A stretch of DNA of 64,000 bases. It comes from Sulfuricurvum sp. 17-40-25 (lineage in GTDB: Bacteria; Campylobacterota; Campylobacteria; Campylobacterales; Sulfurimonadaceae). The stretch spans positions 1 to 64,000 of the forward strand of contig NCIJ01000004.1 in NCBI GenBank assembly GCA_002282015.1, given 5' to 3'. The notes under the pieces are model-generated. The model searched no databases and was not told the DNA's origin. It saw only the letters and a program-made list of their open reading frames with translations. Both the position numbers and the translations under genes were made by a program. Shown here one piece after another: positions 25,508 through 39,410 of the stretch; positions within the stretch are counted from its first letter, which is position 1; each line of letters opens with the position of its first letter.

Positions 25508-25513
25508 TATAAT
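25508..25513 (+). promoter_or_regulatory. -10 box of the cobamide operon
   Basis: TATAAT ten bases after the chemoreceptor stop. It would start a leader of about 220 bases before the TonB receptor gene. Confidence 0.5.
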
Positions 25514-25555
25514 CCGCTAAATTTTTAAAAGGCGGATGAATGCAAGCACCCAAAG

Positions 25556-25739
25556 GGTTTGGTAAAACCTACTTTTCTCTTGCTGCTATTCAAGCGTACG
25601 CTTCGGCTATACGTATGCTTCAAAATTTCACTCGTATTGAGTGGATCTGTCCGACTCATCCAATCCACACCTATTCGACCATCTCCCCTCCCAAGAGTGT
25701 CCTTAACACAATCATTATTACTATTATTCAAGGACACTC
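25556..25739 (+). promoter_or_regulatory. Structured leader with SD-sequestering hairpin
   Basis: Four hairpins can be read in this leader. GGTTT/AAACC spans 25556-25569. AAGCGTACG/CGTATGCTT spans 25592-25620, nine pairs with one G-U. CACTC/GAGTG spans 25629-25643. The last is a perfect ten-base stem GAGTGTCCTT/AAGGACACTC (25695-25704 and 25730-25739) that ends at the base before the start codon. It contains the AAGGA ribosome binding site. CACTC of the third hairpin can also pair with GAGTG of the fourth, offering a switch. I found no conserved B12-box, so this is not a standard cobalamin riboswitch. Ligand and mechanism are unknown. Confidence 0.6.
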
Positions 25740-27527
25740 ATGTTTAAACACACCCTATCACTCGTTGCGTCTGCAACACTAGTTGCCTCATTAGGGGCTC
25801 AAACTCTCGCTATCGATCCAATCGTCGTTACTGCTACCAAAACTGAACAATCACTTCAAAATGTTACCTCCAATATAGAAATCATAACCGGTGAAGAACT
25901 CGCCGAAAAACATATCACTACCGTCCCTGAAGCTCTTAATCTGCTTTCTGGAATCAGTACTGTCAGTAATGGTGGACTTGGTAAATCGACTTCCGTGCTT
26001 CTAAGAGGTTTTGATACGAATAGAGTCTTGGTCCTCATCGACGGCGTTCGCTATAACGATATTGCTTCCACAAATGGGCCATCCTTCGAAAACCTCATAT
26101 TTACTGACATCGAACAAATAGAGCTGATTAAAGGAGCCCAAAGCGGGATATGGGGAAGTGAAGCCAGTGCCGGCGTCATCAACATCATCACCAAAAAAGC
26201 GATAATAGGAACAACCCTCAACGCCCATCTCGACTACGGAAGCTTCGCTACAAAAAAATACGCTGCCTCAATCGGACATAAAACAGACAAGTTTGACATA
26301 CAGGCAGGTGTGAATAGATTAACCACAGATGGGTTTACAGCCTATGCAAAACGCTATGACGATATCAAAAACTACGAAGACGATGCGTATAGAAACACAA
26401 CCATAAATGTCAAAGCAGGGTACAATTTTGATGATGCCAATCGACTGTCTGTAGCCCACACCGACATCGATGCTTATAACGAATACGACAATTCTAGCAG
26501 CGATTCTAGAACGGCAACGTATACTAAAAAAGAAAAATTGAGTCAACTTGCCTATGAGAACAAAACGGGTATTACGACGACCAGACTCCATGCCAACCGC
26601 TCTACCTTTCGAAGAGATTATTCAAACAATAGTAAATACTATGGGGCTGTCAATGAATATGGCCTGACATCGCAGATTGCGTATTCGGACAATGATTTCA
26701 TCCTACTAGGGGGTGATTACAAATCGTTCGAACACCTCAATACCCTAAACAAGAAATTCACCGATAAAGCACTCTTCGCCACCAACAGCAATACTTTTAT
26801 GGATAAATTAATTTTGAGTGAGTCGATCCGTACCGATAACTATGATGCGTTTAATGACAAGACAACGGGCAAAATCGGGATCAAATACAATTTTGACAAG
26901 GATATCTACCTCTCCTCCAACTATGGGACCGGATACAATGTACCGACACTCTACCAACTTTATGATCCAACATACGGAACCATTGGGTTAACACCTGAAT
27001 ACACGCGAAGCTATGACCTCTCTCTTGGATATAACGGCTTTGAAATAACCTACTTTTATAATCGTGTCAGTGAAATGATTGATTACGATTTTGGTATCTC
27101 AAAGTACAATAATATTGCCGGAATATCAACGCTCAAAGGGATTGAAGTTGGCTACAAAAAAGAGGTTATATCAAACACTCTTTTGTATCTGAGCTATACT
27201 TCTCTTAGTGCAAAAAATCAACAAGGGCAAGATTTACGTAGAAGAGCCAAAGAAAATTTCAAATTTGGAGCAGACTATTATGGGTTTGACAAACTTCACT
27301 TTGGATTATACGGAGAGTATGTCGGTACCAGATACGACAGGGAGAATAGTCTTGGAGTACAGACTGGTAGATACACAATTGCGAATGCGGTAACCAACTA
27401 CGATTTGTCCAAAAATATCAAAATTTACGGAAAGGTTGATAATATCACCGATAAATATTATCAAAGTATAAATAACTACGCAACCAGCCCACGTGCATAT
27501 TACGCAGGTATAGAAGCATCATTCTGA
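25740..27527 (+). CDS. btuB: TonB-dependent outer membrane receptor, BtuB-like
   Basis: A 595-residue outer-membrane transporter, probably for cobalamin or other corrinoids. A signal peptide (about 1-22) is followed by a short TonB box near DPIVVTATK and a plug domain (about 30-150, with LLRGFDTNRVLVLIDGVRYND and AQSGIWGSEASAGVINIITKK). The beta-barrel ends in the aromatic terminus AYYAGIEASF. The corrinoid substrate is inferred from the 15 cobamide genes that follow without gaps. Its ribosome binding site lies in the leader hairpin. The next gene starts one base inside it. Confidence 0.9.
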   Translation: MFKHTLSLVASATLVASLGAQTLAIDPIVVTATKTEQSLQNVTSNIEIITGEELAEKHITTVPEALNLLSGISTVSNGGLGKSTSVLLRGFDTNRVLVLIDGVRYNDIASTNGPSFENLIFTDIEQIELIKGAQSGIWGSEASAGVINIITKKAIIGTTLNAHLDYGSFATKKYAASIGHKTDKFDIQAGVNRLTTDGFTAYAKRYDDIKNYEDDAYRNTTINVKAGYNFDDANRLSVAHTDIDAYNEYDNSSSDSRTATYTKKEKLSQLAYENKTGITTTRLHANRSTFRRDYSNNSKYYGAVNEYGLTSQIAYSDNDFILLGGDYKSFEHLNTLNKKFTDKALFATNSNTFMDKLILSESIRTDNYDAFNDKTTGKIGIKYNFDKDIYLSSNYGTGYNVPTLYQLYDPTYGTIGLTPEYTRSYDLSLGYNGFEITYFYNRVSEMIDYDFGISKYNNIAGISTLKGIEVGYKKEVISNTLLYLSYTSLSAKNQQGQDLRRRAKENFKFGADYYGFDKLHFGLYGEYVGTRYDRENSLGVQTGRYTIANAVTNYDLSKNIKIYGKVDNITDKYYQSINNYATSPRAYYAGIEASF

Positions 27528-27874
27528 TGAAAATCATTAGCGTACTCATACTTTTATGTGCATATATCTCTGCAAACAACATAGAAATAACTATCATATA
27601 TGGCAACGATATGCCGGATAAAGTAGTCAATACAACATACGACGAAGGAGCGACAACTGCACTGGATCTACTCAAGCAAGTCAGTGACGTTGTCACTGCC
27701 AAAAAAGGAAGATTTACTTTTGTTCGTTCCATTGACGGAGTAGAATGGAACGAACAAAAGTTCGGATGGTTCTATCTTATGGATGGAAAATCTGTCAAAA
27801 AAATGGCAGAAAATTATGTTCTAAAGAATGAAAAAAGTATGATGTGGGTTTACAAGGTAGAAGCATGCTATTAA
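27527..27874 (+). CDS. Transcobalamin-like (DUF4430) secreted protein
   Basis: A signal peptide (about 1-16) precedes a domain of about 95 residues, with ALDLLKQVSDVVTAKKGRF, WFYLMDGKSVKKMAENYVL and MMWVYKVEAC, matching the DUF4430 fold found at the C-terminus of animal intrinsic factor and transcobalamin. Here it is a stand-alone periplasmic or surface protein, so it may bind corrinoid near the TonB receptor. The assignment is by eye. It overlaps btuB by one base and btuF by ten, so it is embedded in the uptake genes. Confidence 0.7.
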   Translation: MKIISVLILLCAYISANNIEITIIYGNDMPDKVVNTTYDEGATTALDLLKQVSDVVTAKKGRFTFVRSIDGVEWNEQKFGWFYLMDGKSVKKMAENYVLKNEKSMMWVYKVEACY

Positions 27875-28689
27875 AACTTCTTTTCATTTTTATCATGGCC
27901 GTTCAACTCTCTGCAGTTGAACGGATTATCGCTTTAAGCCCTGCTGCCAATGAAATGATTTTTGCTCTTGGTGAAGGAGATAAAGTCGTTGGGAATACCT
28001 CTTATTGCAACACTCCCAAAGAAGCAAGAAGCGTTACGAAAGTGGGAGGATATTTCTCCCCGTCACTGGAAAAAATTGTGACGCTCTCTCCTGACCTTGT
28101 CATAATGCAAGACAACAACCCCCCTCTTACCCAAAAATTAATCCAGCTTGGGATAAAAACGATTGTTATCAAAATCGATACCATCGACTCCATCAAAAAA
28201 GCATTTTTCACCATAGCCAAGCCGTTACATGCTGAGGCTAAAGCTGCTGTTATAACCAAAAAAATAGACAAATCACTCATGGGCTTGAGAGGGATTGTCC
28301 AACATAAAAAGATCCTCATCGTCATAGGTTCCCCGACCGATCTCTCCAAAGAGATCTATGTAGCAGGACAAAATCTTTATTTCGATGATATTATCCAAGC
28401 CAGCGGGAATGTCAATGCGCTTCAAAGCAGTCGAAAAGGGCAACCTGTCCTCAATCTCGAAAAGATACTTAAAACCAATCCTGACATTGTCATCGTTCTC
28501 GCGCCGCTGATGAAAGAGCGGCATCTTACCCGCGAAATGATCCTCTCCCCATGGCGCGATCTTCCTATAAATGCGGTAAAAACGCACTCTGTCTTTATCC
28601 AAGAGGGAGATTACGCGGGAATTCCAAGCGATAGAATCGTCCTTTTTATCGATGATTTCGGAAAGATTTTACGTGAATCTAAACATTGA
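27865..28689 (+). CDS. btuF: Cobalamin-binding periplasmic protein BtuF
   Basis: Binds corrinoids in the periplasm and delivers them to BtuCD. About 274 residues from the ATG at 27865, where a signal peptide begins (MLLKLLFIFIMAVQLSA); the frame stays open seven codons upstream but without a leader. Family motifs are RIIALSPAANEMIFALGEGDKVVG, VGGYFSPSLEKIVTLSPDLVI and the second lobe with LNLEKILKTNPDIVIV. It overlaps the DUF4430 gene by ten bases and btuD by 17. Confidence 0.92.
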   Translation: MLLKLLFIFIMAVQLSAVERIIALSPAANEMIFALGEGDKVVGNTSYCNTPKEARSVTKVGGYFSPSLEKIVTLSPDLVIMQDNNPPLTQKLIQLGIKTIVIKIDTIDSIKKAFFTIAKPLHAEAKAAVITKKIDKSLMGLRGIVQHKKILIVIGSPTDLSKEIYVAGQNLYFDDIIQASGNVNALQSSRKGQPVLNLEKILKTNPDIVIVLAPLMKERHLTREMILSPWRDLPINAVKTHSVFIQEGDYAGIPSDRIVLFIDDFGKILRESKH

Positions 28690-29371
28690 TCATCTCCATA
28701 CCGACTATTTAAATGATGTTTCATTTGAGCTCAACAACGAAAACATGGTTATTTTAGGCTCAAACGGTGCGGGCAAGACCACCCTGGCCAAAGCAATTGT
28801 CAATTTGAAAGAAAACGACCGTATTTTCTGCAACACCAAAAAGGTCTGCGAGATGAGTAGTGAACTCAGAGCCAGACTTTTGAACTTCATTCCCTCAAAA
28901 CTCGAGGTCTTTGATGAGTATATTGATGTGCACGAATTTTTGGAACTGAGTCTGTTAAACGGAACTTCACACGGTGAGATTGAGAAGGTTTTGAGACTTT
29001 TAGACATAGAACACCTCGCACATAAGTCGTGTAAAGAAATAAGCAGCGGCGAAAGTCAACTCGTCTTATTCGCCGGGGGGCTGCTGCAAAATTCTGAGCT
29101 TACCCTCTTTGATGAGCCTACGGCGAATCTTGACAGTGATAAAAAAATCAAGATCTTTGAGCTTTTAAAAAGACATCAAGGTCTAAAACTGGTGATTACA
29201 CACGATTTGAATCTGGCGTACAAACTTGGTTTTAGGGTGTTGTTCTTACAAAATGGTACTGTTACCTACGATGGTAGCTGCGAGCAATTCTTTGATTCGG
29301 AAAACCTCTTCCGGCTGTTTGGTGATTCTATCAAACGTGTGGATGACTTTTTTATGGTGAACTATCGATGA
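28673..29371 (+). CDS. btuD: Corrinoid ABC transporter ATPase BtuD
   Basis: ATPase of the BtuCD importer. Walker A LGSNGAGKTTLAKAI, the signature segment ISSGESQLVLFAGGL, Walker B LTLFDEPTANLD and the H-loop ITHDLNLA are intact. I prefer the GTG at 28673: GGAAAG lies seven bases upstream and the N-terminus then matches the family. An ATG 21 bases earlier is possible but has no site. 232 residues. The stop overlaps btuC by four bases. Confidence 0.92.
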   Translation: MNLNIDHLHTDYLNDVSFELNNENMVILGSNGAGKTTLAKAIVNLKENDRIFCNTKKVCEMSSELRARLLNFIPSKLEVFDEYIDVHEFLELSLLNGTSHGEIEKVLRLLDIEHLAHKSCKEISSGESQLVLFAGGLLQNSELTLFDEPTANLDSDKKIKIFELLKRHQGLKLVITHDLNLAYKLGFRVLFLQNGTVTYDGSCEQFFDSENLFRLFGDSIKRVDDFFMVNYR

Positions 29372-30327
29372 AACTGACCATCTTGATAGGAGCACTGATC
29401 CTGCTGTCTGTTTCGGCGTTCATGGGAGAGACTCAGCTCGACATCCAAAAAATACTCGATCCGGATGCTATAGAATACCTTCTTTTCTGGGATCTTCGTG
29501 CGCCTCGTGTGGTTGTTGCTTTCTCAAGCGGCGCGATTCTGGCACTGGGAGGACTGGTATTTCAAGCAGTCTTTAGAAATTCTCTTACCACACCCTTTAC
29601 TCTTGGTGTTTCCAGCGGAGCAACGCTTGCAACTGCATTCGGAATTATCTTTCTCCCAGCCTCGCTAGTAGCTTTTTCATCGATCTTCAGCTTCTTCGGA
29701 GCCTTTTCAACCGTATTGTTACTCTTTCTCTTTGCCCGAGTACTTAATACAATGCAGACGGGTTCTCTCCTTCTCATTGGGATTGCACTCTCTTTTTTCT
29801 ACTCTGCTGCATTAATGGTGCTGTACTATATAAGTGATTTACAGCAAAGCTACTCTATCATCCGATTTACGATGGGGAGCCTGAATGTTGTCGGGTTTAC
29901 ACACGTCTATGCAGTCATAGCAGCCGCATTTCTTTTACTCGGTGTGACGCTAAGATACAAACATGAGCTGCGTCTTATCCTCACCTCCTATGACAACGCT
30001 TTTTTAAAAGGGATAGAAATCAAAAAGATCAATCTGATTCTCCTTTTTTTCGTCTCGATTAGCGTCGGTGTCAGTGTCAGCGTGGTGGGACCCATCGGAT
30101 TCGTGGGCCTCGTTATTCCTCATGTCATCAAACTGATCTATAAACAAAGCAGCGATAAACTCATCCTCCCCGTCTTTTTTTACGGAGGAGTATTTTTGGT
30201 CCTGTGCGACTTGATCGCTCGTAACCTGGGAACCGTGTCGGAAATACCTATCGGTGTCGTAACCTCATTTGTCGGCGGCCCTTTTTTCATCTATCTGATC
30301 GGGAAACGGAAGAACAGCAATGGTTAG
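29368..30327 (+). CDS. btuC: Corrinoid ABC transporter permease BtuC
   Basis: FecCD-family membrane component with about nine to ten hydrophobic segments in 319 residues. Family hallmarks are LRAPRVVVAFSSGAILALGGLVFQ (split by coupling residues), NSLTTPFTLGVSSGATLATA and VVGPIGFVGLVIPHVIK near the C-terminus, close to the BtuD coupling helices. It overlaps btuD by four bases and cbiA by eight. Confidence 0.93.
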   Translation: MKLTILIGALILLSVSAFMGETQLDIQKILDPDAIEYLLFWDLRAPRVVVAFSSGAILALGGLVFQAVFRNSLTTPFTLGVSSGATLATAFGIIFLPASLVAFSSIFSFFGAFSTVLLLFLFARVLNTMQTGSLLLIGIALSFFYSAALMVLYYISDLQQSYSIIRFTMGSLNVVGFTHVYAVIAAAFLLLGVTLRYKHELRLILTSYDNAFLKGIEIKKINLILLFFVSISVGVSVSVVGPIGFVGLVIPHVIKLIYKQSSDKLILPVFFYGGVFLVLCDLIARNLGTVSEIPIGVVTSFVGGPFFIYLIGKRKNSNG

Positions 30328-31579
30328 CCTCTGCATCAGTGCCATTGCCTCTAATCAAGGTAAGACTATCCTAAGCTCCGCCCTTTTGTATCATTTCAAA
30401 GATTCTGTGCGCCCTTTTAAAGCGGGACCCGATTTCATCGATCCCCAATTTCACACAAAAATCTGCGGTACACAGAGCATCAACCTTGATGGGTTCATGA
30501 TGAATCCCAAACAGCTTACCTGGCTTTACAACCATTACAGTGATAAAGAAGTCTCCATCCTGGAAGGGGTAATGGGATTTTACGACGGGATGGACAAACA
30601 CAGCAGTGCCTATGACATCTCCAAACTGTTACATATGCCGACCCTTTTGGTGCTCGATGGAAGCGGCAGCTATATCACCGTGAGCGCTGTATTAAAAGGG
30701 CTAAAAACCTATAAAAAAGGAAATACGATCAAAGGGGTAGTCCTTAACCGTATCGCTTCACAAGGCCACTATGAGCTTATCAAGGCACAAATTGAAAAAG
30801 ACTTTAGTGATATTGCCGTCTTGGGATGGATACCCAATAATCTGCTCACCCTCAAAGATACCCATCTGGGACTCGATCTGGACGATATGGATAAACTCGA
30901 AGCGATATCCAAAGAAGTATTGACACATATCGATATCGAAAAGATCAGAACCATAGGTTATTGCGAACCAAAGATCAATACAGACTATCCATTTAAACTT
31001 CTGGTAAAGATGGATCAAACAGTAGCCGTAGTTACCGATGAAAATCTCTCTTTTTTATATCATGACAATCTCCGCTTCCTTCAAGAAACATATACCCATG
31101 TTCAGATCATCCGCCCATCAAATGACGAAGTGATCCCTGAGAACTGCAGCAGTGTCTATATTTGCGGAGGATACGCAGAGACTGAAAAAGCGTATGCTTC
31201 CATTAAAAAAGCAACAAATTTTAGAGACTCATTGATAAAACATGCCAAAAACAAAAAGATCTATGCAGAATGCGCCGGCCTCCTCTATCTTGGAAAAAAT
31301 GTTGATGAAAAGATTATGAGCGGGATTCTGGAGGTTTCCTTTACTTTGGAAAAAAGATTTCAACGTCTGGGATATTATTTCAATGAGCTTGGAACAAGAG
31401 GCCATGCCTTTCACTACACTAGGCCCCTTGATACGGCTCAAGGATTTGATACGCTCTCCAAATCAAAAGGGGGGACCGGAACCGTTGGAAGCTGGCAGAG
31501 CACCAATAAAAAAGTGTTTGGAACCTATTTGCATGTAATGTTTAGAAGTAACCCCAGCTGGATCAAAAAGAGATTATAA
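30320..31579 (+). CDS. cbiA: Cobyrinic acid a,c-diamide synthase
   Basis: Amidates the a and c side chains of cobyrinic acid (or hydrogenobyrinic acid) with glutamine and ATP. The N-terminal dethiobiotin-synthetase-like domain starts SAIASNQGKTILSSALL with a modified P-loop. FKAGPDFIDPQFH and EGVMGFYDG follow. The C-terminal glutaminase domain has SVYICGGYAE and the nucleophile in AECAGLLYLG, with FGTYLHVMF late. 419 residues. It overlaps the previous and next genes. Its presence means the cell can modify early corrins, not only salvage complete B12. Confidence 0.92.
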   Translation: MVSLCISAIASNQGKTILSSALLYHFKDSVRPFKAGPDFIDPQFHTKICGTQSINLDGFMMNPKQLTWLYNHYSDKEVSILEGVMGFYDGMDKHSSAYDISKLLHMPTLLVLDGSGSYITVSAVLKGLKTYKKGNTIKGVVLNRIASQGHYELIKAQIEKDFSDIAVLGWIPNNLLTLKDTHLGLDLDDMDKLEAISKEVLTHIDIEKIRTIGYCEPKINTDYPFKLLVKMDQTVAVVTDENLSFLYHDNLRFLQETYTHVQIIRPSNDEVIPENCSSVYICGGYAETEKAYASIKKATNFRDSLIKHAKNKKIYAECAGLLYLGKNVDEKIMSGILEVSFTLEKRFQRLGYYFNELGTRGHAFHYTRPLDTAQGFDTLSKSKGGTGTVGSWQSTNKKVFGTYLHVMFRSNPSWIKKRL

Positions 31580-32382
31580 TGGGCATCAAAACAGTAATAA
31601 CACTCCAAGAACTCTCTCCTATTATCAACAGTACTGTATTGATACCTACCGAACATGGCGTCAGCGACAGTGTCTATATCACCGATCAAGGCGTGCTTAA
31701 ACTGTTTGAATCTGCTTCATCGGAGGCTATTTTAGAAGAGAGGAATTTGTTACTAAACCTCTCTCGCCTTCCCATTACAAAACACTGCAGTGATATTTTT
31801 TTCCTCCACAAAAAACCTTGTGTACTGTATGAAAAACTCGGCGGAAAAAGTCTCGAAAGCGCCGATGATAATCACATCATCCAGATAGCCGGATTTATGC
31901 GCCGTTTTCACAAGCAAACAGCTGGGAAAACTTCCATAAACACCCCTTTATTTGAAGTTGCCAACCTCCAAATGCTCATCGATCAAACTCAGTACCATCC
32001 ATTTCAGCAGGTATTTGATTCTATTGATATCCAACTTTCACGTGACGGAGTCATCCATGGAGATCTCTTTTTAGATAACGTTCTTTTTACAGATGATGAG
32101 CTCAGCGGTGTTTTTGATTTCATTGAGGCGTGTGAGGGTGACTTCTTGTTTGACCTGGCCGTCGTTGCTGCTTCATGGTGTTTGGACGGAGAAGACGATC
32201 ACGGCAAAGTCAATCTGTTGCTCACACACTACAATGCAAACATTGGTTTTGAAGATTTTATCCCTTATATGAAATATGCCCTTCTCTATTATGCGACCAC
32301 CCGCTATATCAGCCATCGAGACTATCAATCCCTTCTTGATAAAATCATCCGCTTAGACGAGTATGCTAAAGGCCAAATGTGA
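31579..32382 (+). CDS. APH-family kinase in the cobamide operon (267 aa)
   Basis: A phosphotransferase-fold kinase related to ThrB2 homoserine kinases and aminoglycoside phosphotransferases. The Brenner motif HGDLFLDNVLF (catalytic D162, N167) and the metal Asp D180 in GVFDFIEACEGD are visible. The enclosing operon makes aminopropanol-phosphate precursor with a CobD-like enzyme but has no pduX. I infer that this protein makes L-threonine-3-phosphate (or serine phosphate). Drug resistance is unlikely here. It starts one base inside the cbiA stop and overlaps bluB by four. Confidence 0.75.
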   Translation: MGIKTVITLQELSPIINSTVLIPTEHGVSDSVYITDQGVLKLFESASSEAILEERNLLLNLSRLPITKHCSDIFFLHKKPCVLYEKLGGKSLESADDNHIIQIAGFMRRFHKQTAGKTSINTPLFEVANLQMLIDQTQYHPFQQVFDSIDIQLSRDGVIHGDLFLDNVLFTDDELSGVFDFIEACEGDFLFDLAVVAASWCLDGEDDHGKVNLLLTHYNANIGFEDFIPYMKYALLYYATTRYISHRDYQSLLDKIIRLDEYAKGQM

Positions 32383-33005
32383 ATTTCACTCTCCAAAATG
32401 CCCAGGCACTTCAGGCCATTATCTCAGCACGCCGCGATGTACGGGGAAACCGATATATCAATAAGGCGATTGCCCCCGAAGTCTTAGATGCGATTCTACA
32501 TGCTGCCAACTGCGCTCCCTCAGTCGGATTCTCTCAGCCTTGGGAGTTTATGATAATAGACGATATGGAGCTTCGAGAAAAAGTATACAAAGAGTTTGAA
32601 AAAGAAAATGGCAAGGCCAAAAAGATCTTTCAGGACAATACTCTCTATCCTGCATTAAAGCTCGAAGGAATCATTGAAGCCGCCTATAATATCGCGGTAT
32701 TGTACAAAAAGCCTACCAAAGCGATTTTAGGGCAAACTACACAAAAAAAAGTTGGAGAGTACAGTGTCGTCTGTGCTATTCAAAATCTATGGTTGATGGC
32801 ACGTGCCTATAACATAGGTGTGGGCTGGGTTAGCATTCTCAAACCGAAAAAAATGAAGAAAATATTAAACATATCCTCGGAATACAAACTGATCGCCTAT
32901 CTTACAATAGGTTATGTCGATGAGTTTTTAGAGGTGCCCGAACTTCTGACACTCAACTGGGAAACAAAAAAAGAGCTCACAGATGTGATCTCAACAAGGA
33001 AATAA
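32379..33005 (+). CDS. bluB: 5,6-dimethylbenzimidazole synthase BluB
   Basis: Flavin-destroying nitroreductase-fold enzyme that converts FMNH2 and O2 to DMB, the lower ligand of cobalamin. The 208 residues include ISARRDVRGNRY (FMN-binding and the conserved Asp), NCAPSVGFSQPWEFMII and ARAYNIGVGWVSIL, which separate BluB from other nitroreductases. The start is GTG, overlapping the kinase stop in GTGA. Since oxygen is needed, DMB would form under aerobic or microaerobic conditions. Confidence 0.88.
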   Translation: MNFTLQNAQALQAIISARRDVRGNRYINKAIAPEVLDAILHAANCAPSVGFSQPWEFMIIDDMELREKVYKEFEKENGKAKKIFQDNTLYPALKLEGIIEAAYNIAVLYKKPTKAILGQTTQKKVGEYSVVCAIQNLWLMARAYNIGVGWVSILKPKKMKKILNISSEYKLIAYLTIGYVDEFLEVPELLTLNWETKKELTDVISTRK

Positions 33006-34070
33006 ATGACCATTAAAACAATCATAGGTAACATTGATTTTGCTGAATATTTACGCGGGAAAAAGGGGACCTTTTTTCTAAGTCTCAGTAATACCGATAC
33101 AGCTAAAATAGAGGGGATTACTCAAGCAGGGATTCCAGGAATGATTCATCTCACCCCAACCCTCGATACTGAGTTTCTCTGTACCGGAGAGGTACGAAGT
33201 CTTGAGAACATCGCCACAACCCCAAAAGGAGTTCCAACCCCTGGACTCATCACCCGTGCAGTTCATCTACTTCATCCATTTAATACCCTCGCTTTACTCA
33301 ACCTAGGGTTGGAAGTAAAACCAAAAATAGACTACTTTCCCCTCTATGACTTTGGCATTACCCCAAGCGGTTCAATTGGCACAGGAGCAAATATTGATGC
33401 AATGGAGCTATTTGAAAAAGGATTAGAGTTTGCACAAGAGTATATCTTCTACAACGACTATATTATCTTGGGCGAATCGGTTCCCTCCGGTACAACTACT
33501 GCCCTCGCCACCGCTTTAGCATTAGGATACGATGCCCATGAAAAATTCAGCAGCAGTTTTAAAGATGCCCCAAACTCTATAAAGGAAAGTGTTGTTGATG
33601 CCGCACTTTCCAATTGTAAAGAGGGCGATGATCTTTTTGAAAAGCTCTCGCGCGTGAGCGATAACATGCTCATTTTTAATTCAGGGTTTGTTCTGGGTCT
33701 ACAAAAACGTAAGATTACAACGGTATTGGCTGGCGGCACGCAGATGGCGGCACTGCTTTTGGTGATCAATTCAATCCTAAAACACACAGACCAAACTATT
33801 AATAGTCACAAGCTTGCACTGTGTACTACCAAATGGGTGCATGAAGACCCTAATTCAGACATCAAAGGGCTACTTGAGATGCTGGACTTTCCGATCAATG
33901 CCTACTATGTCGATTTTGATTTTTCCCTTACACAGCATCCTGCCCTCAAACTCTACGATGATGGAGAGGCAAAAGAAGGAGTCGGTGCGGGAGGTGCCCT
34001 CATGTATGCCTGCCTCAACGGTATCACCAAAGAGCAAATTACCCGCAAAGTGGAGAGTTTTTTGCAATGA
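33006..34070 (+). CDS. cobT: Nicotinate mononucleotide-dependent phosphoribosyltransferase CobT
   Basis: Activates the lower-ligand base to alpha-ribazole phosphate with nicotinate mononucleotide. This 354-residue form resembles the archaeal/cyanobacterial CobT type rather than the Salmonella type: FFLSLSNTDTAKIEGITQAGIP, YFPLYDFGITPSGSIGTGANI and ILGESVPSGTTTALATALALGYDA. The C-terminus holds the KEGVGAGGALMYA stretch. AAGGAAATAA leads to the ATG. It follows bluB directly, which fits the pathway order. Confidence 0.85.
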   Translation: MTIKTIIGNIDFAEYLRGKKGTFFLSLSNTDTAKIEGITQAGIPGMIHLTPTLDTEFLCTGEVRSLENIATTPKGVPTPGLITRAVHLLHPFNTLALLNLGLEVKPKIDYFPLYDFGITPSGSIGTGANIDAMELFEKGLEFAQEYIFYNDYIILGESVPSGTTTALATALALGYDAHEKFSSSFKDAPNSIKESVVDAALSNCKEGDDLFEKLSRVSDNMLIFNSGFVLGLQKRKITTVLAGGTQMAALLLVINSILKHTDQTINSHKLALCTTKWVHEDPNSDIKGLLEMLDFPINAYYVDFDFSLTQHPALKLYDDGEAKEGVGAGGALMYACLNGITKEQITRKVESFLQ

Positions 34071-34558
34071 AAATACTCTACTTCGGAGGGCAAAAATCGG
34101 GTAAAAGTTCTCTAGCGGAACGTCATGCCAAAGAACTTTCCACTCATAAGCCCTACTATCTCGCGACGTACGACAACCGTTTTGGCGACAGTGAAATGGA
34201 AACCCGTATTGAAAAACACCGAGATACCCGAAAAGAGGACTTTATAACGATCGAAGAGAGTCACGATCTCGCATCCGTCATTAAACCCGATCACACATAC
34301 CTTATCGACTGCATCTCTATGTGGCTGCTCAATCGTATCGAGGAAGATGAAACGACTTTGATCAAAGCTGTCGAAGAACTAGAAAACATCGATGCTAACA
34401 TCGTGTTTGTCCTTAATGACGTCACCTGCGGTGTTATTCCCATCGATGCGATGAGTCGCCGCTATGTAGATCTCAGCGGACTCATTGGACAAAAGCTAGC
34501 CAGTATCTGCGATGAAGTCTACGAAGTTAAACTGGGCCTACGGATTCGCCTCAAATGA
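34067..34558 (+). CDS. cobU: Adenosylcobinamide kinase / guanylyltransferase
   Basis: Phosphorylates adenosylcobinamide and then guanylylates it in nucleotide-loop assembly. The P-loop GGQKSGKSS lies at 8-16, and RIEKHRDTR carries H51, which fits the guanylylated His of CobU. DCISMWLLN and LNDVTCGVIP follow. At 163 residues it is slightly short but complete. It overlaps cobT and the next gene by four bases each. Confidence 0.92.
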   Translation: MKILYFGGQKSGKSSLAERHAKELSTHKPYYLATYDNRFGDSEMETRIEKHRDTRKEDFITIEESHDLASVIKPDHTYLIDCISMWLLNRIEEDETTLIKAVEELENIDANIVFVLNDVTCGVIPIDAMSRRYVDLSGLIGQKLASICDEVYEVKLGLRIRLK

Positions 34559-35562
34559 ACCTCTTTGAACACGGTGGAGATATCAACACTTTTGCCGAAT
34601 ACTGTAATTGTTCTCCCCAAGAGATTATTGATCTCTCCAGCAATATCAACTTCATCACCCCATCGGTCGATTTTAGCACCGTTACCCTCAACAGCTATCC
34701 TGACTATGAAGCGCTAACACAAACGTTAGCCCATTATTACAACGTGCACTCTGATGAATTGGAGCTTTTCAACGGAGGAAGTTCGGCGATCTTTTCGCTG
34801 ATGCGCCTTTTCGATCATCCAACCTGCACCATCTATTCCCCTGCTTATCTGGAGTACAAAAAGGCGGCCCTAACGTATGACAAAAAGCTAAACCTCATCA
34901 ACCGTTTTGAATCGATGGACACGGTGGTAGAAGAAAACTCCCTCGTCATCTTCGTCAACCCCTCAACCCCAGATGGAAAATACTACGATTTAGATGTATT
35001 GATGAGGGAATGGATGGCAAAGAGTTGTACCGTAGTCATCGACGAGTCCTTTTTAGAATTTTGCGGCGGAGAGTCGGTAACCAAGTATCTTCAAACCTAC
35101 GACAAACTCTATGTTTTAAAATCACAGACGAAGTTTTACGGATGTGCAGGGGTGAGAATCGGAATCATCCTCTCATCACGCAACAATATCACCGCACTCA
35201 AAGCCAAAGAGCCTTTATGGAAAATCTCGGCACTCGATAGCCATTTTCTCATCAACGCATTGGGAGATGGTAAGTTTCGTGCGCGCTCTCATGCACTGAA
35301 TGATGAAGCGAAAACGTATCTGAAAACTATCCTTGAACACTCCCCTCTTTTTGAAAAGGTATTGAATAGCGATGCCAATTTTTTCCTTGTCCGTCTCGCT
35401 TCAATGAGTGCAAAAGAATTTCAAGAGAAACTTCTCCCTTATCGCATCATGGTGCGCGATTGTTCCAATTTCGACTTTTTGGATGAGAGGTATGTGCGTA
35501 TTGCGGTAAAAAGCGTAGAAGCAATGAAACCGTTTGAGGAGATACTGTGTTCTTTGACATAG
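34555..35562 (+). CDS. cobD: Threonine-phosphate decarboxylase-like CobD
   Basis: A PLP enzyme of fold type I that turns L-threonine-3-phosphate into (R)-1-aminopropan-2-ol phosphate. Signature elements are FEHGGDINTFAE, DLSSNIN, NGGSSAIFSLM, VNPSTPDGKYY and the Schiff-base Lys K193 in SQTKFYGCAGVRIG. 335 residues. Serine phosphate could be used instead in norcobamide makers, which cannot be told from sequence. The end overlaps cbiB by 16 bases. In some nomenclatures this gene is called cobC. Confidence 0.87.
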   Translation: MNLFEHGGDINTFAEYCNCSPQEIIDLSSNINFITPSVDFSTVTLNSYPDYEALTQTLAHYYNVHSDELELFNGGSSAIFSLMRLFDHPTCTIYSPAYLEYKKAALTYDKKLNLINRFESMDTVVEENSLVIFVNPSTPDGKYYDLDVLMREWMAKSCTVVIDESFLEFCGGESVTKYLQTYDKLYVLKSQTKFYGCAGVRIGIILSSRNNITALKAKEPLWKISALDSHFLINALGDGKFRARSHALNDEAKTYLKTILEHSPLFEKVLNSDANFFLVRLASMSAKEFQEKLLPYRIMVRDCSNFDFLDERYVRIAVKSVEAMKPFEEILCSLT

Positions 35563-36410
35563 CGCTCATCGCCTACATCACCGACCGCATCTTCGGCGAG
35601 TTCAAATTCATCCGTCACCCTGTAGTGCTCATGGGGGATTTAATCACCGCGTTTGAGAAGCGGTTTTATCATGATAGCATCGTGCGCGGATTCTGGCTCG
35701 TGTTTTGGTTGTTAGCGTGTGTATTAGCACTCGTCTACCCTGTTAGTCTAATCAATAATCCATGGGTATTAGGAGTTATCGCCTCGACGGGAATCGCTGG
35801 GAAGATGCTCTATGGAAGTGTCCGGAACGTCCTGAATGACCCGCAATCAATCCGCTTTCTTGTGAGCCGTGACACCGAAAACCTGAGTCCACCCGAGATC
35901 AACAAAGCTGCCATTGAGACCTACGCCGAAAACCTCAGCGACGGAGTGATCGCTCCGCTGTTTTATCTACTGATAGGAGGGTTAGTCGGGCTGTTTGTCT
36001 ACAAAGCGATCAATACCCTCGACTCGATGGTAGGGTATCGAAATGAGCGTTATGAGAAATTCGGCAAGGTGAGCGCACGATTGGACGATGTTGTCAACTA
36101 CATCCCCTCACGTATCACGGCGGTGCTCATAGTGATTCTGTTCGGCAAATTCACCTCTCTCAAAAAAGTATGGCAATATGGTGCACAACATGAGAGTCCA
36201 AATGCGGGATATCCGATTTCGGCAATGGCGCTCTCTCTGGATGTATCTCTCGGCGGTCCTACCTCGTATTTCGGAAAGATGAAAGAGAAACCCTACTTCG
36301 GGGATGGGAAGCAGGAGATCAGCGCTGTGGATGTTCAACGTGCATTAACCCTTCAGTGGAAACTCGATACCCTTATGATTATAGTACTGGCGGCGGGAGT
36401 TATGGCATGA
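35547..36410 (+). CDS. cbiB: Adenosylcobinamide-phosphate synthase CbiB
   Basis: A membrane protein that joins aminopropanol phosphate to adenosylcobyric acid. Family motifs are RHPVVLMGDLI, ETYAENLSDGVIAPLFYLLIGG and YRNERYEKFGKVSARLDDVVNYIPSR, plus SPNAGYPISAMALSLDVSLGG. The start is GTG with GAGGAG five bases upstream, inside the end of cobD. About four to five membrane segments in 287 residues. It is the partner of cobD in the pathway. Confidence 0.93.
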   Translation: MFFDIALIAYITDRIFGEFKFIRHPVVLMGDLITAFEKRFYHDSIVRGFWLVFWLLACVLALVYPVSLINNPWVLGVIASTGIAGKMLYGSVRNVLNDPQSIRFLVSRDTENLSPPEINKAAIETYAENLSDGVIAPLFYLLIGGLVGLFVYKAINTLDSMVGYRNERYEKFGKVSARLDDVVNYIPSRITAVLIVILFGKFTSLKKVWQYGAQHESPNAGYPISAMALSLDVSLGGPTSYFGKMKEKPYFGDGKQEISAVDVQRALTLQWKLDTLMIIVLAAGVMA

Positions 36411-37747
36411 AATCAATCTCTATTTTCGGCACCTCGTCCGATGCGGGAAAATCGACCCTGACGTTTGTCATAGGCCGACTGCTGCAAGAGCGGGGAATCA
36501 ATGTTGGGGTGTTCAAAGCCCAAAACGTCTCCAATAACTCCCGTGTCTGCGATGACGGAAGCGAAATCGCTATCGCCCAGTATTTTCAAGCAGAGGTGCT
36601 TGGGATACCGACGAGCTATCACCTCAATCCGGTACTGCTAAAATCGGGTCATGGCAACAGCGCCTCGCTGATCGTCAAAGGGAAAGTCGTTACCGATAAG
36701 GACGTTCGCGAGTACTACCGTGATCTCGACACCCTCAAACCTGCTGTTGATGAGTGTTTTGACTATCTGCAAAAGCAGTATGAGTGCGTCGTCTGTGAAG
36801 GGGCGGGGAGTCCCGTGGAACTAAACCTGATGGACAAAGACCTCTCCAATATCTACATTGCGCAAAAATACGGCACTAAGATCATCCTCGTCGCCGATAT
36901 CGAAAAAGGGGGCGTGTTTGCCTCGATCTGGGGCGTTTATAATCTCCTCCCCGAAGCGTTACGCGCCAATGTCATCGGTGTCATTGTCAACAAGTTCCGC
37001 GGTGATCGAACCCTCTTTGACGAAGGGGTGAATATCATCCAAGAGCGTTTCGGTATCCCTGTGCTGGGCGTTCTCCCTCATCTCCCACTCAACCTCGGAT
37101 TTGAAGACAGCCAGAGTCTCAAAAACTTCGTCCAGAACAAACCTGATCCTGCGAAAAAAATTGGAATCATCAACTATCCCACGATGAGCAACTACAACGA
37201 TTTCGAACCGCTCATCGCCGATGAGACAATTTTCGTCGAATTCATCACCTCCAATGTTTCACTGGAGAGTTTTGATCTCATCATCCTCCCCGGAAGTAAA
37301 CTGGTGATCCAAGATTTGCAATGGCTGAAAAAAACGGGACTGTTTCAAGCACTCAAAGAGCGACGAAACGAGATTCTAGGGATTTGCGGCGGGTATCAGA
37401 TGATGTTTGAAGCCATTATCGATGACGGGTGTGTCGAAACTGCTAAACCCAGCCATGAAGAAGCTCTGGGATTTATCGATGATGTTATCATTTTTAAAAA
37501 AGACAAGGTACTCAAAAGAGGGAAATATGCTATCTTCGGTAAAATCATACAGGGATTTGAGATCCATAATGGGGTGAGCGTCAAATATCCGCTTTCGTAT
37601 GAGAAGAATCATCTCAAAGGGACATTCGTTCATGGTATTTTTGAAGATGATGAATTTGAGACTTATAAAAAAACAACTATCGATAGTTTTATCGCTACGA
37701 TGAGAGACGAAATTGATATGGAAAGGATCTTAAAACATGTCTTATAA
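36407..37747 (+). CDS. cbiP: Cobyric acid synthase
   Basis: Amidates positions b, d, e and g of adenosylcobyrinic diamide. The 446 residues start MKSISIFGTSSDAGKSTLTF, with FKAQNVSNNS and VCEGAGSPVELNLMDKDLSN, and a C-terminal glutaminase domain with LGICGGYQMM and GTFVHGIFED. I use the ATG at 36407, overlapping the cbiB stop as ATGA; a longer frame upstream does not match the family. The end overlaps the Cys-rich gene by 11 bases. Confidence 0.93.
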   Translation: MKSISIFGTSSDAGKSTLTFVIGRLLQERGINVGVFKAQNVSNNSRVCDDGSEIAIAQYFQAEVLGIPTSYHLNPVLLKSGHGNSASLIVKGKVVTDKDVREYYRDLDTLKPAVDECFDYLQKQYECVVCEGAGSPVELNLMDKDLSNIYIAQKYGTKIILVADIEKGGVFASIWGVYNLLPEALRANVIGVIVNKFRGDRTLFDEGVNIIQERFGIPVLGVLPHLPLNLGFEDSQSLKNFVQNKPDPAKKIGIINYPTMSNYNDFEPLIADETIFVEFITSNVSLESFDLIILPGSKLVIQDLQWLKKTGLFQALKERRNEILGICGGYQMMFEAIIDDGCVETAKPSHEEALGFIDDVIIFKKDKVLKRGKYAIFGKIIQGFEIHNGVSVKYPLSYEKNHLKGTFVHGIFEDDEFETYKKTTIDSFIATMRDEIDMERILKHVL

Positions 37748-38159
37748 AAAATGGTTCGATGAGCATGCGCAAAAACATAAAGCGATTATGGAAAAATTGA
37801 CTACCTTAAGTGATCAAGAGGTGATCGAGTATTTCCGTTTTGAAAACATGGTGGAAAATGAAAAAGAGTTCTGTCCACTCTACGCGGACAATAAAAAATG
37901 TCACGATACCCCTGAACTCAACTGTTATCTGTGTGCCTGCCCCAATTTCCGGTTTAACGACAAAGGGTTCAAACAAGAAGAGGAAAAAACTCTTTTCAGT
38001 ACCTGCTCGATCGAGAGTCCGGACGGAGACCAGTACATCAGCGAGACCGCTATCCACCAAAATTGTGCAGGATGTCTCGTTCCCCACAGAGAGAGTTACA
38101 TCAAAAAAGTATTTGACCGTAACTGGTTGGCCATCATGAAAGAAGTGCCGTGTGAATAA
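37737..38159 (+). CDS. Cys-rich small-domain protein (140 aa)
   Basis: About ten Cys and several His suggest metal binding. The core ENEKEFCPLYADNKKCHD, then NCYLCACPNFRF, and the later IHQNCAGCLVPH resemble the Cys-rich small domain (PF04071-like) found in corrinoid gene neighbourhoods. No signal peptide, so it is probably cytoplasmic. It overlaps cbiP by 11 bases and cobS by eight, which puts it firmly in the cobamide operon. A role in cobalt or corrinoid handling is possible but unproven. Confidence 0.65.
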   Translation: MSYKKWFDEHAQKHKAIMEKLTTLSDQEVIEYFRFENMVENEKEFCPLYADNKKCHDTPELNCYLCACPNFRFNDKGFKQEEEKTLFSTCSIESPDGDQYISETAIHQNCAGCLVPHRESYIKKVFDRNWLAIMKEVPCE

Positions 38160-38898
38160 CGTTTATTTGGGGATTAAATTTGCTCTAAGCTACTTCACGG
38201 TTCTCCCGATCCGCTTTAGCCACAGCGATGATCTTTCCCATCCAAAAGTCCTCTCATCGATGCTCTATGCCCTTCCCTTGATCGGATTGTTCCTATCCAC
38301 TGTAAGTATCGGTTTGTTTACTCTTTTGGAACCACTGCAATGGCTGGGGGCGATTATCGCGGCCGTAGCCTATATGGTGATGTACGGGTTTATCCACACC
38401 GAAGCTGTCATAGACGTCGCCGATGCCCTTTACGCCGCACACAGCGGAAAAGATCCCTATGTCATCATAAAAGAGCCTGGGGTCGGGGCGATGGGTGTTT
38501 TGTACGGAGTGAGTTTTCTCCTTCTCAAAATCGCCGCCCTCTCGACACTGTTGATACACCATCTCTTTTTGCCCTTTATTGCGCTTGCAATGGTCAGCCG
38601 TGTTACGCTCCTTGTGTTAATAAAGCATCATGACTTTCGCTCCTCGTTTGTCTCGAAGCTGCACGACAGCCTCTCTTGGCGACCTTTGCTTTTCGTCATT
38701 GCTTTTTATTGTACTGCCGGGTTTTATCTCCTCTCATGGCAGTTCTTTTCGCTTATCTTCATCGGAATCCTCAGTGCACTCATCCTCTCAGCACTTACCA
38801 AAAAGTCACTGGGCTTTATCAACGGCGATGTTTTGGGAATGTCACTGGAGGGGGTTGAACTCATTTTGATTTTACTCGTACTGCTGACATGGAACTGA
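38152..38898 (+). CDS. cobS: Cobalamin synthase CobS
   Basis: An inner-membrane enzyme that joins adenosylcobinamide-GDP and alpha-ribazole. The 248 residues have about six hydrophobic segments and the metal/substrate motif DVADALYAAHSGKDPYVII, plus KEPGVGAMGVLY and GFINGDVLGMSLEGVELILIL near the end. It starts with GTG inside the previous gene and its stop overlaps the phosphatase gene by ten bases. Confidence 0.92.
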   Translation: MNNVYLGIKFALSYFTVLPIRFSHSDDLSHPKVLSSMLYALPLIGLFLSTVSIGLFTLLEPLQWLGAIIAAVAYMVMYGFIHTEAVIDVADALYAAHSGKDPYVIIKEPGVGAMGVLYGVSFLLLKIAALSTLLIHHLFLPFIALAMVSRVTLLVLIKHHDFRSSFVSKLHDSLSWRPLLFVIAFYCTAGFYLLSWQFFSLIFIGILSALILSALTKKSLGFINGDVLGMSLEGVELILILLVLLTWN

Positions 38899-39410
38899 CT
38901 TTATTGCGCCATGCGCCACCCCATCAGGAATATTATGGCTGCTACAATGGGCATACTGACATCCCCATCGATATCGCTTGCTTTGAGCATGCTAAAATAC
39001 AGCCTCTCCTGCATCACCAATTTGACCGTATCTATTCTTCGGATCTACAACGATGCACTGCGACCTTGGAAGCCATGGGAGTCACGGCATTCATCGCCGA
39101 TGCACGTCTACGGGAAGTACGCTTCAAACCTTCCATTGAGGGGAAAACCTTTGCACAGATCGAAGGTCAAGAAGATTTTAATTCCCGCTATTTAGACTCT
39201 AAAGAGAGTTGGCATAAATATATCTGTGACGAATCGTTTGAAATCTTTCAAGCACGAATACAAAGCTTTTTAGATGAACTTCCAAAGGATAAAAATATTT
39301 TGATCTGCTCTCACGGTGGGACGATCAGTATGGTTTTATCGCTGCTAAACACTACTATTGAGAATAACTCATTGAAATACCTCGACCATATAACCGTAAG
39401 TTTACGGTAA
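38889..39410 (+). CDS. cobC: Alpha-ribazole phosphatase-like histidine phosphatase
   Basis: A histidine phosphatase with the catalytic LLRHAPPHQEYYGCYNGHTD and a second histidine in ICSHGGTISMVLS. IYSSDLQRCTAT is the usual third motif. 173 residues. In the cobamide operon it would remove phosphate from alpha-ribazole phosphate or adenosylcobalamin phosphate (CobC role). Last gene of the operon, with an overlap of ten bases with cobS. A 27-base gap leads to tamA. Confidence 0.85.
   Translation: MELTLLRHAPPHQEYYGCYNGHTDIPIDIACFEHAKIQPLLHHQFDRIYSSDLQRCTATLEAMGVTAFIADARLREVRFKPSIEGKTFAQIEGQEDFNSRYLDSKESWHKYICDESFEIFQARIQSFLDELPKDKNILICSHGGTISMVLSLLNTTIENNSLKYLDHITVSLR

Follow-up and report, generated by a model that had tools for sequence, protein, structure and literature searches.

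A conserved leader peptide and a ribosome-site hairpin before the btuB operon of Sulfuricurvum: a candidate nascent-peptide control of corrinoid genes

How are vitamin B12 genes controlled in a bacterium whose B12 operon lacks a cobalamin riboswitch? The question is raised by a 64,000-nucleotide stretch of the genome of Sulfuricurvum sp. 17-40-25 (hereafter the window), in which a 247-nt leader precedes a btuB gene. An initial annotation, made from the letters alone, had described a structured leader at this place, followed by a long cobamide operon, and had suggested a new corrinoid- or metal-sensing RNA or an RNA thermometer. That no known riboswitch is involved is borne out by the Rfam models, which gave only chance matches at the gathering thresholds and at E-values up to 10. 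The covariance model of the cobalamin riboswitch (RF00174) has no match at the btuB leader. It also finds nothing in any of the 200 order genomes searched, and it was positive in 9 of 14 controls. Control of B12 uptake and of the MetE/MetH switch in Campylobacterota without this riboswitch seems not to have been described so far.

The operon is present as the initial annotation had it; its genes (Table 1) serve corrinoid uptake and salvage, and the nearest solved structures of the btuB product are BtuB proteins. Between btuB and btuF sits a gene for a DUF4430 protein (27527-27874), possibly an extra corrinoid-binding protein. The 140-aa protein (37737-38159) contains cysteines and has no family assigned; in other genera (L290, L291, L293), relatives recognised by eye are likewise part of B12 operons.

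Table 1. Features of the btuB leader and of the operon that follows it.
Feature	Position	Strand	Basis
Putative -10 element TATAAT	25508..25513	+	TATAAT/TACAAT in 30 of 35 relatives, located 25-34 nt ahead of the uORF start
Inverted repeat ATCCGC...GCGGAT around the uORF ribosome site	25512..25537	+	complementarity
Likely uORF Shine-Dalgarno AAGG (relatives GGAGG/GGGGAG)	25529..25532	+	sequence, alignment
Upstream ORF (uORF), 80 codons: 51 conserved to Ser-Pro-Pro, then an in-frame extension that spans the hairpin and passes the btuB start	25540..25782	+	alignment, codon statistics
Codons of the KGFGKTYFSLAAI motif, common to metE leader ORFs	25552..25590	+	motif and profile comparison
Ser-Pro-Pro codons, proposed pause site	25684..25692	+	Pro-Pro invariant in 35 sequences; YF-to-Pro-Pro distance 37-44 for most family members
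Hairpin 5' arm (btuB anti-Shine-Dalgarno)	25695..25704	+	sequence, alignment of relatives
Hairpin 3' arm including btuB Shine-Dalgarno AAGGA	25730..25739	+	sequence, alignment of relatives
btuB, TonB-dependent vitamin B12 receptor	25740..27527	+	TIGR01779 E 1.8e-88, which misses the curated cut-off; top PDB match BtuB, E 3.6e-39
Rest of operon: DUF4430 protein, btuF, btuD, btuC, cobB, homoserine-kinase-like protein, bluB, cobT, cobU, cobD, cbiB, cobQ, unknown 140-aa protein, cobS, cobC	27527..39410	+	

What the initial annotation overlooked is a reading frame within the leader. From the ATG at 25540 it reads MQAPKGFGKTYFSLAAIQAYASAIRMLQNFTRIEWICPTHPIHTYSTISPP and then continues into an extension, the protein-coding part up to Ser-Pro-Pro (SPP) being 25540-25692. 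Used as a query, the leader DNA had matches in most genomes of the genus, in 35 of which a BtuB-like gene is located just downstream; the uORF is present in 40 of the 41 genus genomes, one of the 40 retaining no more than a remnant. From the start to Pro-Pro there are exactly 51 codons in all 35 aligned copies, with Pro-Pro at codons 50-51. The variation in the alignment is concentrated at third positions (entropies of 0.41, 0.30 and 1.35 bits by codon position), and in the clade of the window pN is 0.027 against a pS of 0.467 (pN/pS about 0.06). Because of this constant length, the third-position entropy and the difference between pN and pS, the 51-codon stretch is protein-coding and under strong purifying selection.

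Past SPP the frame remains open beyond the btuB start in all 25 window-type relatives, and stops interrupt the two alternative frames in 21 and 9 of them. The uORF ends 37-76 nt beyond the btuB start in 25 of the 35 relatives, including the window; in the remaining 10 it stops a few codons after SPP, usually with DND or a similar sequence. Two members of the genus (L069, L071) have lost the entire operon between the same flanking genes, and what can still be recognised of the uORF there is its first 30 codons, interrupted by a stop. As the uORF decayed where the operon was deleted, it seems to have no independent role. In the inverted repeat at 25512-25537 the 3' arm falls on the uORF ribosome site, and similar repeats of divergent sequence are found at this place in many relatives (TCGCCTC..GAGGCGA in L014 and L018). 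The complementarity following TATAAT in the relatives amounts to 4.27 bp, compared with 3.20 bp in shuffled sequences; the repeat could serve as a DNA operator or as a further gate.

The hairpin in front of btuB, which had been proposed to bury its ribosome binding site, is confirmed as a perfect stem of ten base pairs whose 3' arm begins with AAGGA and abuts the ATG at 25740. In the 25 window-type relatives 92.4% of the alignment cells are paired, versus 26-54% when the stem is slid by 1-3 nt, and double changes occur at three of the ten pairs. The stem that covers the btuB ribosome site is thus real and covaries among relatives, and btuB translation is likely gated by it. Ten of the 35 relatives have another hairpin, whose 5' arm lies where the ORF ends and which reaches beside and not over the btuB ribosome site; these ten count against the reading preferred below. 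In L031, L033 and L034 long palindromes (e.g. TCATTCCCGCGAAGGCGGGAAT) lie in the loop of the ribosome-site hairpin, between the uORF end and btuB.

The peptide is not confined to this operon. Searched as a DNA pattern, the motif KGFGxxYFSL has exactly two sites in the same genome, one before btuB and the other before metE, where the ORF carrying it comprises 114 codons and immediately precedes the gene. Of the two metE genes present (C26:2031 and C39:53716), the one at C39 alone is preceded by the KGFG leader ORF. A profile built from metE leader ORFs alone retrieves the uORF with an E-value of 3.5e-12 among 668 window ORFs, the next best being 0.47. Motif and profile together detect, in the 200 genomes of the order, metE leaders, short leaders of TonB receptors, and TonB receptors which start with the motif. 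The best 80 matches among 84,980 genomes all bear Campylobacterota names (Arcobacter, Sulfurospirillum, Sulfurimonas, Sulfurovum, Hydrogenimonas, Sulfuricurvum and others). Across the phylum, MetE or a TonB-type receptor, the latter judged from its N-terminus, follows 142 of 143 distinct ORFs, and the exception is a chance pattern match. Every form of the peptide tested against Pfam and NCBIfam remained without a credible match; judged from its sequence, the uORF belongs to an undescribed peptide family. AlphaFold gives the long form a confident helix only near residues 10-40 (mean pLDDT 69).

The genes around the family members point to B12. The order KGFG-uORF, TonB receptor, btuF, btuD, btuC recurs in other genera, and several leader-bearing receptors head btuF-btuD-btuC-cob operons (in both cases the genes were named by eye from N-termini). 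In 17 genomes motif-carrying receptors are encoded less than 10 kb from metH, and in 9 they are found about 2 kb ahead of the metE leader. MetH is encoded in 66 of the 72 genomes with a KGFG-type metE leader, and such a leader is found in 6 and absent in 44 of the 50 MetE-only genomes (Fisher 1.8e-11, a value that ignores phylogeny, which confounds it). In about one quarter of the MetE genomes the leader lacks KGFG though MetH is present in most of them, which counts against the reading preferred below. L274 and L275 (family f11), which have no MetH, carry before metE only the C-terminal part of the leader (HCNCIF..RRSGCHPP), without KGFG. The C-terminal CHC module was considered as a metE-specific feature and dropped, since long forms with CHC also stand before some TonB receptors. 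In many genomes it is the TonB receptor itself that begins with the motif, with no Pro-Pro nearby in the cases read (receptors of this kind occur in L139, L109 and L095-L102, that of L139 directly after metH). There it may act as or with an export signal or have another role, which also speaks against the preferred reading.

Within the family the motifs keep characteristic distances to Pro-Pro. From YF to the first Pro-Pro there are mostly 37-44 residues, in nearly all long forms 39 or 36 residues separate CHC from the last Pro-Pro, and thus in most forms a sensor-like motif stands 36-44 residues ahead of Pro-Pro. Pro-Pro is preceded by serine in the window and by histidine or alanine (HPP or APP) in most metE forms. 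The long forms bear CxCxC and further cysteines, which the short btuB forms lack or show in varying fashion. The 30-36 nt following the last Pro-Pro pair with the ribosome site of the next gene at 0.54, against 0.27 after shuffling (114 loci, which are mutually related), and the excess stays significant without the Pro-Pro codons. Pausing of a ribosome at Pro-Pro would thus leave this site accessible. In the window the 5' arm of the hairpin begins 2 nt past the Pro-Pro codons. Going by toeprint geometry, which is established, a ribosome holding them in its P and A sites would cover the mRNA to about 25703, so that nearly the whole 5' arm would be occupied.

We therefore consider it fairly probable that the leader encodes a CruR-like regulatory nascent peptide which couples btuB translation to the corrinoid status without a riboswitch. 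We infer that a ribosome translating the 51-codon uORF would slow down or arrest at the invariant SPP and, covering the 5' arm, would leave the btuB ribosome site open for translation of btuB and the operon. KGFGxxYFSL would then be about 38 residues back, hence near the tunnel exit, where the nascent chain may sense sufficient corrinoid, directly or via a partner. With enough corrinoid the pause would be relieved, the hairpin would form again and btuB would be shut. The same peptide family might control metE and B12 receptor genes across the Campylobacterota in place of the cobalamin riboswitch.

A corrinoid signal, already suggested in the initial annotation, is plausible, but the sensor proposed there was a different one. 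A corrinoid-sensing RNA or an RNA thermometer would be in line with a leader that folds better than 200 of 200 dinucleotide shuffles (z -3.06) and with the conservation of the ribosome-site hairpin. What conservation tracks, however, are codons and amino acids: the supposed RNA core is the ORF with the codon signature given above, and no clearly conserved, covarying RNA core is left beyond the expression platform. The smaller hairpins do appear in the fold of this sequence, but they lie within uORF codons and are not clearly conserved; those at 25592-25620 and 25627-25645 keep 58-64% of their pairs with 0 and 1 double-change cells, and the 80% kept at 25641-25668 are inseparable from codon constraint. 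Likewise, the CACTC segment (25629-25633) and the two GAGTG segments with which it was thought to switch exist here, but CACTC is found in only 9 of 35 relatives. Together with the lack of an Rfam match this makes an RNA sensor extremely improbable. The conserved, sensor-like part is a peptide that also occurs in the metE leader ORF; the initial annotation had the right place and the right gate and the wrong kind of sensor. A small protein working in trans as an ordinary operon product would account for the strong purifying selection, and yet the remnant decays once the operon is lost, SPP is fixed beside the anti-ribosome-site arm, and the frame enters btuB in most of the genus, so that we regard this as very improbable.

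The two remaining alternatives are closer to the proposed arrest. The uORF might be a means of plain translational coupling, its translation merely melting the hairpin, with neither arrest nor ligand sensing by the peptide, and with regulation, if any, at the promoter or at uORF initiation. A uORF which spans the hairpin and in 25 of 35 relatives ends beyond the btuB start, and whose own ribosome site lies inside an inverted repeat, would suit this, but coupling leaves unexplained why the amino acids of the motif are conserved across families and at metE, why 51 codons and the Pro-Pro spacing are fixed, and why the uORF ends before btuB in 10 relatives; we think it rather improbable. It is unlikely, too, that the nascent peptide senses something other than corrinoids, such as a metal (zinc, copper), methionine or the export status. 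The cysteines of the long forms, which recall metal sensing by CruR, and the KGFG-less form before metE in MetH-less genomes speak for such a signal. Against it stand the short btuB forms, in which cysteines are absent or variable, the receptors adjoining metH and btuFDC, and the targets themselves, as metE and btuB are the classic targets of B12 riboswitches.

A wider reading can be put forward, tentatively and at somewhat less than even confidence: a phylum-wide family of cobalamin-sensing nascent peptides would have replaced the cobalamin riboswitch in the Campylobacterota, and in the metE leaders one of two combined sensor-to-Pro-Pro modules would be for corrinoid. We know of no earlier nascent-peptide sensor for a cofactor as large as B12, so that this leader peptide, if the reading is true, would be the first. 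In the open-licence literature we found no B12-responsive arrest peptide and no metE leader peptide, Campylobacter included, and a text search of the C. jejuni Ribo-seq paper (PMC11955535) found no mention of Cj1201 or of anything upstream of met genes. A peptide family that marks B12 genes offers a direct and testable answer on their control.

Compared with known systems, the design most resembles CruR (DUF2946), a copper-responsive uORF with a CXXC motif 45 residues ahead of RAPP, located before a TonB transporter (PMC9426467), which arrests with two proline codons in the P and A sites (PMC12992588). Both peptides are encoded just before a TonB-dependent transporter and have a sensor motif about 40-45 residues before a near-terminal Pro-Pro, and the post-transcriptional control of CruR is the plan proposed here for btuB. 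DUF2946 itself gives no match up to E 1 with the window form and up to E 10 with other forms. KGFGxxYFSL or CHC replaces CXXC, with a spacing to Pro-Pro of mostly 36-44, ISPP, HPP or APP replaces RAPP, and the targets are B12 genes; unlike CruR, which acts through Rho, Pro-Pro is here followed by a ribosome-site hairpin. The RAPP/RGPP arrest peptides (PMC12992588, EMBO J 2025) are likewise encoded by small uORFs that carry a Pro-Pro close to their end and precede TonB-related and other genes. They differ in their N-terminal sequence and in having RAPP, RGPP or RAPG near the C-terminus, and the metE form here has two sensor-Pro-Pro modules; that the SPP of the window is outside the strong arrest motifs RAPP and RGPP counts against our reading. 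In Mycobacterium tuberculosis a uORF is reported to be likewise combined with B12-related control of metE (PMC11260477), but there a riboswitch is the sensor, whereas here no riboswitch matches and the peptide is conserved. More generally, the coding signature and the covariation reveal a conserved uORF adjoining a hairpin that hides the downstream ribosome site, the arrangement of uORF-coupled translational control. With the cobalamin riboswitch RF00174 the family shares the targets btuB and metE, and it likely fills the same physiological role, although the leader here is peptide-coding. If this is true, the CruR-type design of a sensor motif, about 40 residues and Pro-Pro extends to a new signal.
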